From: Mangrovimonas sp. YM274
GTDB taxonomy: Bacteria > Bacteroidota > Bacteroidia > Flavobacteriales > Flavobacteriaceae
Reading direction: 5' to 3'
NCBI RefSeq assembly: GCF_030908385.1
Contig: NZ_CP133091.1
Span: forward strand, 2,156,128-2,220,127
Length of the DNA stretch: 64,000 bases
The position numbers and the translations under genes were made by a program. The notes beneath the pieces were generated by a model. It was not told the origin of the DNA, made no database searches, and saw only the letters and a program-made list of their open reading frames with translations. Position 1 is the first letter of the stretch, and every line of letters starts with the position of its first letter. Shown here in pieces: positions 27,755 through 30,979 of this stretch.

Positions 27755-28426
27755 ATGAAAAATACCTTAAAAATTTCTTACGTATTAATGCTGTTAATTG
27801 TAGTTACAAGTTGCTCCAGCAGTATCAAAGTATTGGATTCTTGGAAATCTGACAGCGTAACACAAATTAAGGACAACAATATTTTGGTTATTGCCAGAAC
27901 AGCCAACAATCAGGCGCGTATAGCTTTTGAACGTGATATCGCAGATAAATTAATTAGTAATGGCACAAAGGCCACCCCAAGCTATTCCGTACTGCCCACC
28001 TCCTTTAAAGTGGAAGAAAAGCACACGGAAGAGGAACTTGAAAATTTTAAAAATTTCCTGAAAAATGAAGGCTACAATGGGGTTGTTTTAACAGTTATTA
28101 AAGACTTTCAAGAGTCCTCAAAAACCTATACCGATGGCGGCTACTATGCGGGCGCTGCTTACCCAAATTACTACCCAGGGTATTACGGAGGTTTTTACGG
28201 CTACTACATGCACCCTATGTCTTACTCCACCTATGGCAGCTATGTCCCAATGACTTCGACTACAGTTACTCAAAAAACATTCATTTTGGAAACCGTTGCC
28301 TATGATTTAGATCAACCAGATGGCAAACAATTGGTAGCTGTAGTAACCACCAAAATAGAAGATCCCCAAAGCGTCACTAAGAACGCCGAACAGTACACGG
28401 AAGAAATAGCCAAAGCACTTAAATAA
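27755..28426 (+). CDS. DUF4136-like lipoprotein
   Basis: 223 residues. The lipobox is VTSC-SSS after a hydrophobic signal. The body has the DUF4136-type pattern (VLDSWKSD, LVIARTANNQARIAFERDIADKL) and a Tyr/Gly-rich loop (residues ~128-160), then VTQKTFILETVAYDL. It is probably an outer-membrane lipoprotein of unknown role. A terminator follows 28 bases after the stop. Confidence 0.75.
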   Translation: MKNTLKISYVLMLLIVVTSCSSSIKVLDSWKSDSVTQIKDNNILVIARTANNQARIAFERDIADKLISNGTKATPSYSVLPTSFKVEEKHTEEELENFKNFLKNEGYNGVVLTVIKDFQESSKTYTDGGYYAGAAYPNYYPGYYGGFYGYYMHPMSYSTYGSYVPMTSTTVTQKTFILETVAYDLDQPDGKQLVAVVTTKIEDPQSVTKNAEQYTEEIAKALK

Positions 28427-28795: not shown

Positions 28796-28829
28796 TGATA
28801 GTTTTATAATACTTTAAAAACCACTATCA
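28796..28829 (+). promoter_or_regulatory. Hairpin reaching the start codon of the MuiA/plug gene
   Basis: TGATAGT at 28796-28802 pairs with ACTATCA at 28823-28829, whose last base is the A of the ATG. A partial TTT/AAA inner stem extends it. It could limit ribosome access. No ligand motif is recognised. Confidence 0.35.
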
Positions 28830-30979
28830 TGAAAACATATCTTATACTTTGCCTGTTCTTATCTTCTATTTGCTTTGCAAACACAAACGAAACAGAGTCT
28901 TCATTAAAGGAAGTCACCGTCTACCTTGATGGTGCCCAAATAACCAGAACTGCCACTATACAATTGCCTGTTGGCACTTCGGAATATACCTTTCACAAAC
29001 TGTCTCCTTATATTCAAGAAAGTAGCATTCAAGTCTCAGGCTTGCAAAATGCTTCTATTCTCTCAATCAACTATGGTATTAACTACCTTTCCAAACAGCC
29101 AAAAACCAAAGAGATAGAAACCCTTCAAGAACAAATTAAATCCATCAATGACCAAATTCAATTTGAAGATGATTTAATTGCTGGGTATAAAGAAGAATTG
29201 TCCATCATTCAACAAAATCGCCACTTGGGCAGCGACACGCAAGTGGTTTCTTTGGAAAAACTAAAGCAATTTGCCGCCTATTACAGGCAGCGAATTACCG
29301 AAGTGAATACATTGATCTATGAATCCTACAAAAAGAAAAGAGATTACGAAGACGAAATCAATGACATTAGAAAACAACTCCAAGAATACAATGTTGAAGA
29401 AAAAGTTCAGACTGGGGAAATCAAAGTGAAATTCAACACCGCTAAACCAACCTCCCTTAATATTACCTTGAAATACAATGTCAGCAATGCAGGATGGTTC
29501 CCTACTTACGATTTAAAAGCGAACAGTATCAATACTCCCATCGACATGCAATATAAAGCACATGTATACCAAAACACGGGTGTAGATTGGAACGATATAA
29601 AAGTGACGCTTTCCACAAGTGACCCCAACACCAACAACGAAAAACCAGATCTAGATCCTAAGTACCTAAACTTTATTTCCAGAAACAGTCATTACGAAAG
29701 AACACGGGCCACAAAAAGCTATAATTACAAATACAACCCAATGGTACAAACTGTATCTGGTATTGTAACTTCAGCTGCTGATGGATTACCTCTACCAGGC
29801 GTAAATGTTGTAGAAAAAGGAACCAACAATGGTGTCCAAACCGATTTTGATGGTAAATATACCCTGCGAACCACTGGAGGCAAAGAGCTTGTATATTCCT
29901 TTGTGAGTATGATGATAGAAGAACTCCCGATTCATTCCAGCATTATGAATGTAGCCTTGAAAGAAGATGTTGCAGCCCTTGAGGAAGTCGTGGTGGTTGG
30001 TTATGGAGTTCAGCCAAAATCTGATAATACTCCTGGTTATCAAAACAAAGTACAGGCCATGATGGATGCCGAAAATTTTGATGATGCTGCATACACGGGA
30101 GCAGTTAGTACCCTAGAAGGCAAAGTTGCCGGCCTAAATGTAAACATCAGAGGTATTAATTCAATCTCAAATTATAGTGAACCGTTATATGTACTTGACG
30201 GAGTCCCTGTCTCCAAAAAGGAATTTGAAAATATTTCACCAAATAGTATTGGTTCTGTTGAAATCTTAAAGGGCAATGAGGCTTCAGGACTCTATGGAAG
30301 CAGAGCTTCAGATGGTGTCATTTTGATTTCAACAAAAAACCTTACCGCTACAGGAGAAGTCATTGAAGAAGGCGTTACCAACAAACGTTTCGAAATACAA
30401 AAGGCCTACAGCATGCCTTCCAACGGAGACATCACAGTAATTGAAATTGATAAATTCTCGATTCCTGCAAGCTATTCCTATTATGCGGCACCTATTTTAA
30501 ACGAAAATGTTTTTCTAACCGCCAAAATTGGGAATTGGGAACAGTACAACTTACTGCCCGCCGAAGCGAATATCTATTTTGAAGGCAGTTACTCAGGGAA
30601 AACCAATATCAACCCACAAACTACTACAGATACCTTAACCGTATCCCTGGGGGTTGATCCTAACGTGGTGGTGAAACGAAATCAAGTGAATGATTTTAAA
30701 AAGACTAATTTTATAGGGAACAATAGAATTATCAATAAAATGTATGAATTGGAACTAAAAAACAACAAACAGACGCCTATCGATATTGTAATTATGGACC
30801 GTATTCCAATCAGTCAAAACAAGGACATTAAAGTTGAGGACATCGAAACCGGAACCTCTCAGTACAATGATGACAAAGGATTGATGGAATGGAAAACGGT
30901 TCTTTCCCCTGGCGCTTCAGATACTTTCAAATTTTCATACTCGGTAAAATATCCTAAGTACAGGCAAGTCAACCTATAA
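28829..30979 (+). CDS. MuiA/DUF4139 protein with inserted SusC-type CarboxypepD_reg and TonB plug
   Basis: 716 residues. The signal peptide MKTYLILCLFLSSICFA is followed by a DUF4140 domain (~25-115), a coiled coil (~95-190) and the first half of DUF4139 (~195-280, NVSNAGWFPTYDLKA). Residues ~310-380 are a carboxypeptidase-regulatory-like repeat (SGIVTSAADGLPLPGVNVVEKGT). EEVVVVGYG (385-393) is a TonB-box-like SusC segment, and ~420-506 is a plug domain (VAGLNVNIRG, YVLDGVPVS, GLYGSRASDGVILISTKN). DUF4139 resumes (~515-716, AKIGNWEQYNLLPAEANIYF). There is no beta-barrel. The normal MuiA role is unknown. The insert suggests docking to TonB-type or SusD-like partners in the periplasm; that is inference. 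Confidence 0.9.
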   Translation: MKTYLILCLFLSSICFANTNETESSLKEVTVYLDGAQITRTATIQLPVGTSEYTFHKLSPYIQESSIQVSGLQNASILSINYGINYLSKQPKTKEIETLQEQIKSINDQIQFEDDLIAGYKEELSIIQQNRHLGSDTQVVSLEKLKQFAAYYRQRITEVNTLIYESYKKKRDYEDEINDIRKQLQEYNVEEKVQTGEIKVKFNTAKPTSLNITLKYNVSNAGWFPTYDLKANSINTPIDMQYKAHVYQNTGVDWNDIKVTLSTSDPNTNNEKPDLDPKYLNFISRNSHYERTRATKSYNYKYNPMVQTVSGIVTSAADGLPLPGVNVVEKGTNNGVQTDFDGKYTLRTTGGKELVYSFVSMMIEELPIHSSIMNVALKEDVAALEEVVVVGYGVQPKSDNTPGYQNKVQAMMDAENFDDAAYTGAVSTLEGKVAGLNVNIRGINSISNYSEPLYVLDGVPVSKKEFENISPNSIGSVEILKGNEASGLYGSRASDGVILISTKNLTATGEVIEEGVTNKRFEIQKAYSMPSNGDITVIEIDKFSIPASYSYYAAPILNENVFLTAKIGNWEQYNLLPAEANIYFEGSYSGKTNINPQTTTDTLTVSLGVDPNVVVKRNQVNDFKKTNFIGNNRIINKMYELELKNNKQTPIDIVIMDRIPISQNKDIKVEDIETGTSQYNDDKGLMEWKTVLSPGASDTFKFSYSVKYPKYRQVNL

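Follow-up and report, generated by a model that had tools for sequence, protein, structure and literature searches.

A MuiA-like protein of Mangrovimonas carries the N-terminal part of a SusC-type transporter, without its barrel, inside DUF4139

TonB is best known for powering outer-membrane transporters, and Bacteroidota genomes carry many SusC genes. In the SusC transporter Bt1763, according to the available text of PMC7782687, the N-terminal extension (NTE) sits directly ahead of the Ton box. Ton-box mutants of this protein grew on levan as poorly as a SusD deletion, and Bt1763 without the NTE gave no growth after 24 h, which the authors termed dominant-negative; the same text reports SusC barrels in a closed state without plug density in vitro. 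Work cited in the accessible part of PMC12204202 implicated the Bacteroidetes NTE in TonB interaction. That part of the paper suggests such a role for PorE too and puts forward vWA proteins that are tethered to the inner membrane and share a YfbK-like fold as force transducers. MuiA of Pseudomonas aeruginosa has been tied to swarming and biofilm in the accessible parts of PMC7603352 and PMC10418997. The literature searched contained nothing on MuiA in Bacteroidota, and DUF4139 papers among the matches listed concerned, by their titles, Leishmania and Anisakis. No description of the architecture reported here was found in titles and abstract starts among the matches listed, subscription papers being mostly outside coverage.

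The window analyzed in this study is a stretch of 64,000 nucleotides from Mangrovimonas sp. YM274. An open reading frame at 28829-30979 of the forward strand encodes 716 aa in a single frame with no break, as the earlier note had described, and was divided into the following features.

28829..30979, + strand: MuiA-like protein with a SusC-derived insert (TIGR02231, DUF4140/DUF4139, 716 aa)
28829..28882, + strand: putative Sec signal peptide, about residues 1-18, no lipobox seen (sequence by eye; model helix 2-15)
28913..29203, + strand: DUF4140, residues 29-125 (Pfam)
29108..29389, + strand: helical hairpin, possible coiled coil, residues 94-187 (AlphaFold helices 94-129 and 142-187)
29462..29728, + strand: first part of DUF4139, from residue 212 to the insert-bearing loop (Pfam, AlphaFold)
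29753..29995, + strand: SusC-type NTE, CarbopepD_reg_2, Pfam 309-389 (Pfam, NCBIfam, solved-structure homologs; fold match to 9hfj and 6ytc)
29978..30007, + strand: Ton-box-like LEEVVVVGYG, residues 384-393, overlapping the Pfam end of the NTE (sequence, motif statistics)
30008..30103, + strand: variable linker, residues 394-425, containing NKVQAMMDAENFDD (loop comparison)
30116..30319, + strand: plug core, residues 430-497, equal to Pfam Plug positions 40-107 of 107 (Pfam, dN/dS, fold match)
30371..30958, + strand: second part of DUF4139, about residues 515-710 (Pfam)

Profile searches of the segments gave Pfam matches above the curated cut-offs for all four domains. DUF4140 was matched at residues 29-125 (E 7.6e-23, profile positions 1-96 of 98) and DUF4139 at residues 212-710 (E 1.6e-52). 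Because the DUF4139 profile was covered from position 1 to 205 of 205, both halves of this domain are present, in agreement with the earlier reading of the two ends of the protein. Within DUF4139 lay CarbopepD_reg_2 (residues 309-389, E 1.1e-13) and Plug (residues 430-497, E 2.5e-11). In NCBIfam, the protein scored 288.3 bits against the MuiA family TIGR02231 (cut-off 112.6, E 1.2e-85), and the SusC/RagA model TIGR04056 aligned at residues 307-504 only, with model positions 1-205 of 981 (E 2.8e-52). The score of the latter, 178 bits, was under the 368-bit cut-off, as expected without a barrel. The TIGR04057 signature at residues 474-503 was below its cut-off, and SusC homologs with a solved structure matched residues 308-504 (best 6e-27). 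Given these E-values, chance would be a negligible source of the domain matches. Pfam found no barrel family in the protein and TIGR04056 ended at model position 205, confirming that its middle corresponds to the N-terminal part of a SusC transporter without the barrel. The plug proposed for this region is present but not whole, because the second half alone was matched (profile 40-107 of 107). Being cut short here, as in many relatives, the plug cannot function as a complete SusC plug.

No SusD-like neighbor was seen by eye in the list of open reading frames of the window. The protein has no barrel and is not a transporter. Its signal-peptide-like start, read by eye, suggests export to the periplasm. 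The gene directly upstream (27755-28426) encodes a putative lipoprotein of 223 aa with no Pfam match, and tblastn detected it at the two other Mangrovimonas loci and at none of the remaining 31 named loci. The remaining neighbors, judged by eye, are presumably MutS2-, DCC-, sulfurtransferase- and transporter-like; the DCC gene lay upstream in 32 of 33 named loci, and the one other locus is truncated at that point. With no Pfam match for 27755-28426 and no other neighbor SusD-like by eye, the earlier suggestion of a contact with SusD or peptidoglycan gained no support. Rfam searches at gathering thresholds gave no match in the window.

In addition to the profile searches, AlphaFold models were examined. 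The full-length model (33 rows) had a mean pLDDT of 63.9 and a pTM of 0.40; DUF4140, the helical hairpin and the DUF4139 strands were mostly at pLDDT 65-90 and the NTE was fair, and values fell under 50 at residues 266-300 and 382-520, with the plug region at 28-44. In a model of the insert alone (26 rows), the NTE reached 78-88 and the plug core 51-60. The NTE matched the SusC NTE structure 9hfj with a TM-score of 0.81 in the full model and 0.84, normalized by target, in the insert-only model, for which NTE structures ranked first in Foldseek. The insert-only plug core showed weak matches to the SusC plugs 6sml_B (54 columns, rmsd 1.5 Å, 41% identity) and 8aa0_A (52 columns, rmsd 2.2 Å, 46% identity), both with E of about 0.01; the RagA match (54 columns, rmsd 1.5 Å) had an E of 0.014. 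Foldseek also uses sequence, so the fold match is not independent of the sequence match. Thus, modeling, which had been proposed as a check on the insert, clearly recovered the fold of the NTE, but the plug was modeled with low confidence and its core matched RagA weakly.

A fusion created by sequencing or assembly was rejected, because the same protein, with 90-93% identity, occurs in two other Mangrovimonas genomes. A recent copy of a resident SusC was also rejected for the window. A query of its own genome returned 23 places, namely, the protein itself and 22 that matched the insert or its surroundings only; the best-scoring SusC was 46% identical over the insert, and one 37-residue piece elsewhere was 54% identical. 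Among the three Mangrovimonas proteins, dN/dS was 0.066 to 0.086 for the plug core, 0.13 to 0.23 for the NTE, 0.18 to 0.61 for the linker, 0.06 to 0.10 for the DUF4140 side and about 0.03 for the C-terminal DUF4139 part. For eight pairs drawn from other genera, plug-core values were 0.21 to 0.41 in five and 0.055 to 0.10 in two, and one pair was not computable because synonymous sites were saturated. The plug is therefore clearly constrained in Mangrovimonas and less strongly so in some other lineages; by the same measure, a decaying relic was rejected for the Mangrovimonas plug core and less clearly elsewhere. These values bear out the earlier view that the insert is selected rather than decayed.

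Next, we examined the distribution of the insert. The N-terminal part of the protein (residues 21-305) was matched in at least 48 of 199 genomes of the family, and its profile was matched in at least 31 of 148 genomes from the order and at least 73 of 247 from the phylum, some weakly; the order and phylum samples overlap, and all of these counts are lower bounds, as part of the initial candidates was scored in many genomes. After short and identical rows were dropped and two damaged loci were left out, 163 Bacteroidota homologs remained, with the same flanks throughout. Both NTE and plug were recognized in 50 of them, the NTE alone in 41, the plug alone in 3 and neither in 69. The insert occupies the same position across the phylum; the earlier note had proposed to look for it at this point in other Flavobacteriaceae. 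The profiles for the NTE and the plug were derived from Flavobacteriaceae, which placed divergent forms (by eye, L138, L140, L141, and L187) in the group with neither. The loops measured 130 to 215 residues with NTE only, 184 to 248 with NTE and plug, and 46 to 82 in the 59 short loops without either, that is, those of the 69 rows under 90 residues, the 10 longer ones being excluded. The same insert between the same flanks, with or without plug, was found in Winogradskyella, Algibacter, Jejuia and Flavivirga. Because 69 of the 163 homologs showed neither part to the profiles, the core job of MuiA seems independent of the module. The two damaged loci were L073 (genome G117), a MuiA-like gene interrupted by a TAA stop, and L088 (G072), a 59-residue fragment, and they indicate that the gene seems broken or lost in some genomes.

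In a FastTree tree of the flanks of 77 Flavobacteriaceae rows, the NTE state changed twice and the plug state 13 times; in the 26 Winogradskyella-type rows, 18 of them with a plug, the plug state changed five times, gain and loss being indistinguishable in this tree. These 77 rows were collected with the window protein as query and are weighted toward Winogradskyella (26 rows); rows were excluded if their flanks were identical or too short (fewer than 200 residues in the N part or 140 in the C part). The insert is accordingly a recurrent element of the family, in which the NTE is old and the plug has been gained, lost and swapped. In other Bacteroidota families, the same place held, by eye, a bare EVVVxGY, an NTE with a plug scrap, or a plug without NTE. 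In L124, L126, L136, L140, L141, L186 and L187 from the order, the DUF4139 loop showed by eye an NTE-like domain with a plug scrap of the RGARxxEVFIDGVKVRG type, possibly acquired independently from another class of TonB receptor. The order appeared permuted by eye in L167 and L172, with a plug scrap (IRGxAS) ahead of the Ton-box-like motif.

The NTE of the window protein is followed by EEVVVVGYG, a candidate Ton box. A pattern written after viewing the loops ([DENSQAT]E[VIL][VIA][VIAT], up to two residues, then [GA][YF]) was found in 44 of 50 loops with NTE and plug, in 26 of 41 with the NTE alone and in 7 of the 59 short ones lacking both, compared with mean counts of 0.14, 0.08 and 0.04, respectively, in shuffled loops. 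The flanks, with 73,832 residues, contained none. As written, the motif was missing in 6 of the 50 and 15 of the 41 loops. The two nearest Mangrovimonas proteins have FEETVVVAY[A/G], compared with LEEVVVVGY in the window protein (67% identity over 9 codons), and the Ton box is thus not strictly kept.

The plug itself was then compared between relatives. In 20-column blocks, Winogradskyella thalassocola (L053) and Winogradskyella pacifica (L050) shared 90 to 100% identity ahead of the Ton box and again past the insert. Identity was 67% in the block that starts at the Ton-box end, 20 to 55% in the six plug blocks and 41% over the plug core. A comparison with L057 showed an equally different plug between flanks that were 65 to 100% alike per block. 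Judging from these alignments, the Winogradskyella plug was exchanged. A tree of 20 MuiA and 38 SusC-type plugs rejected a single MuiA clade (AU test, P = 6e-5), with just 69 columns and many forks unresolved, a result that counters a single origin of the whole insert. In this tree, L062 and L063 joined SusC L222 of the L062 genome (100/99), L071 joined SusC L264 of another Winogradskyella genome (100/99), and L051 and L055 joined SusC L221 of the L051 genome (93/94), while ten other Winogradskyella MuiA plugs grouped together (91/95), as did two Mangrovimonas plugs. Against 45 SusC-type plugs, which were those from profile matches and are perhaps incomplete, with a few that may not be SusC, the nearest plug lay in the same genome for three of five proteins tested and elsewhere for two, as a raw count. 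The own-genome identities were 70%, 81%, and 74% for L053, L062, and L051, compared with 66%, 64%, and 63% elsewhere, respectively. Between L062 and L222, similarity rose shortly past the Ton box and dropped at the plug end; plug DNA identity was 62 to 76% per 15 codons, mostly 71 to 76%, indicating that the exchange was old.

The linker motif of the window protein (NKVQAMMDAENFDD), also a pattern written after viewing the loops, was found in 7 of 41 NTE-only loops, all from Winogradskyella. Of the 50 loops with a plug, it was present in 2, from Mangrovimonas, one being that of the window protein. Its plug core thus stands behind a linker of the NTE-only type, as if the plug had been gained within an NTE-only ancestor. 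In a quick combined tree of NTE and plug, all 51 MuiA inserts were on one side of a branch with an SH-aLRT of 96. Because the plug alone rejects one MuiA clade, this result is considered to be carried by the NTE. An NTE-only tree that included distant families asked for five changes for MuiA, of which starred branches force one, and was poorly resolved.

The same module was also observed on other proteins. At least 29 of 120 family genomes encode a YfbK_C protein; a search of the window's own genome gave none. Among 31 vWA open reading frames of Flavobacteriaceae, at least 24 had an NTE, at least 20 had a Ton-box-like motif and at least 19 had a plug, these being lower bounds because many frames were cut at the locus edge. 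By Pfam, L281 contained NTE, plug, vWA and YfbK_C without a barrel, and L238 contained NTE, vWA and YfbK_C without a barrel or a Pfam plug match, its plug being found by a custom profile; the Pfam result on the barrel concerns these two proteins, and the others are open frames of 374 to 784 aa. L281, L238, L240 and others of L276-L304 are YfbK-like vWA proteins that range from NTE only to the full N-terminal module. In the combined tree, the L238 and L240 inserts were on the SusC side, with L238 beside SusC L222 of its own genome. The window's genome also encodes an M56/BlaR1 peptidase (L177:540-2555, C1:2847539-2849554) whose C-terminal half includes a marginal plug core (20.8 bits against a cut-off of 23.9, passing only together with its neighbors in the frame); no NTE was found and no Ton box was seen in it. 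A plug core also occurs late in a 788-aa frame of a Winogradskyella genome (L244). Altogether, the fusion in the window is real, conserved and, as far as the searched literature tells, undescribed, and it is one case of recurring barrel-less SusC N-terminal modules.

The window protein is, at our best guess, a periplasmic protein that touches TonB. We give roughly even chances to the reading that a periplasmic MuiA-like protein has domesticated a TonB-docking module (NTE and Ton box) whose plug is exchangeable. The DUF4139 loop would carry the NTE and the Ton-box-like strand, and by analogy with SusC, a TonB-ExbBD motor would most likely bind and pull the MuiA-like protein through them. The plug core behind the Ton box would be an exchangeable element that is either pulled by TonB or decides the partner, and the pull might act on MuiA itself or on whatever partner the plug binds. 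In favor of this reading are the intact frame and domains, the shared flanks, the NTE fold, the low plug-core dN/dS of Mangrovimonas, the steady NTE beside a changing plug, the persistence of the Ton-box-like motif, the published work on Bt1763 and on the Bacteroidetes NTE, and the copies on vWA proteins. Against it count the departures from a strict Ton box, the truncated plug, the looser plug constraint in several pairs outside Mangrovimonas, the 69 homologs with neither part and the low model confidence of the plug. A broader and more tentative proposal, which we consider rather improbable as it stands, is that soluble periplasmic MuiA-like and vWA/YfbK-like proteins of Bacteroidota, having borrowed the NTE and Ton box of SusC, form a set of barrel-less clients driven by TonB-ExbBD, in which a plug cassette refreshed from the SusC pool sets the partner or the force response.

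A less probable explanation, although the strongest competitor, is that the DUF4139 loop simply accepts inserts that the many-copy SusC genes donate by ectopic recombination, the NTE being an Ig-like spacer and the plug having no TonB-related role. The frequent gain, loss and swapping of the plug would fit this explanation, as would the fast linker, the plug dN/dS of 0.21 to 0.41 in five of eight pairs outside Mangrovimonas, the varied truncation of the plugs and the loops that hold scraps only (AGVxIRG, EVVVxGY) or, by eye, a permuted order (L167, L172). However, the Mangrovimonas plug core is as constrained as the DUF4140 side (0.066 to 0.086 compared with 0.06 to 0.10), and an unrelated vWA family shows the identical module order. 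The NTE also has a signature of its own: a PI[HY]SSxMN-like pattern, chosen after viewing the loops, was present in 62 of 73 MuiA rows and in none of 64 SusC or vWA rows, among which some SusC genes appear twice.

Unlikely to a greater degree is a module that competes with transporters for TonB or reports TonB load and so tunes down the resident SusC, with MuiA not being driven. Two observations are consistent with such a sink: Ton-box-like motifs occur in 7 of 59 short loops that have neither NTE nor plug, and plugs are nearest to a same-genome SusC plug in three of five Winogradskyella genomes. A sink, however, would need neither a plug core under selection nor the MuiA body, and the own-genome match is missing in two of the five genomes. 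Gating of a resident SusC barrel, or its SusD, by the fused plug in trans is very improbable, for all the own-genome plug similarity of L053, L062 and L051 and the closed barrels without plug density mentioned above, as many fused plugs lack the first plug part, the DNA identity of the best pair (71 to 76% over most of the plug) points to an old match, and the window insert is 46% identical to the best-scoring own-genome SusC, with 54% over one 37-residue piece elsewhere.

If a TonB-docking module does act on barrel-less proteins, the motor would also drive other envelope machines of Bacteroidota. Relatives keep the presumed motor-docking part and swap or lose the plug, and non-transporter proteins may thus be wired to the TonB motor. 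With plugs repeatedly exchanged behind an NTE and Ton box that vary less, nature has in effect run an experiment on what each part does, and this offers a direct route to testing the roles of NTE and DUF4139.

Finally, the window protein was compared with known systems. With MuiA/TIGR02231 proteins it shares nearly all of both domains above the cut-off, and it differs from them in the DUF4139 loop, which is enlarged by NTE, Ton-box-like motif and plug core. With SusC/RagA transporters (TIGR04056) it shares the succession of NTE, Ton-box-like motif and second plug half, but it has no beta-barrel, its plug is truncated and no SusD gene was seen beside it. Its LEEVVVVGYG resembles DEVVVTG, given as the Ton box of SusC Bt1763 in the available text of PMC7782687. 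PorE, by its description in the accessible part of PMC12204202, is likewise a non-transporter envelope protein with an NTE-like domain and was suggested to use a TolA/TonB-like transducer; in contrast to the window protein, it is described as a lipoprotein that tethers the outer membrane to peptidoglycan, and that part of the paper mentions no plug in it. The M56/BlaR1 protein resembles the window protein in having a plug core without a barrel and differs from it in that no NTE or Ton box was found. The vWA fusions are a loose parallel to the tethered YfbK-like vWA force transducers proposed in the same part of PMC12204202. In these YfbK-like vWA proteins, the module is N-terminal, whereas in the window MuiA it lies inside a domain loop, and the L238 and L240 inserts stand apart from the MuiA inserts; nevertheless, both carry the same module on a protein that is not a transporter.
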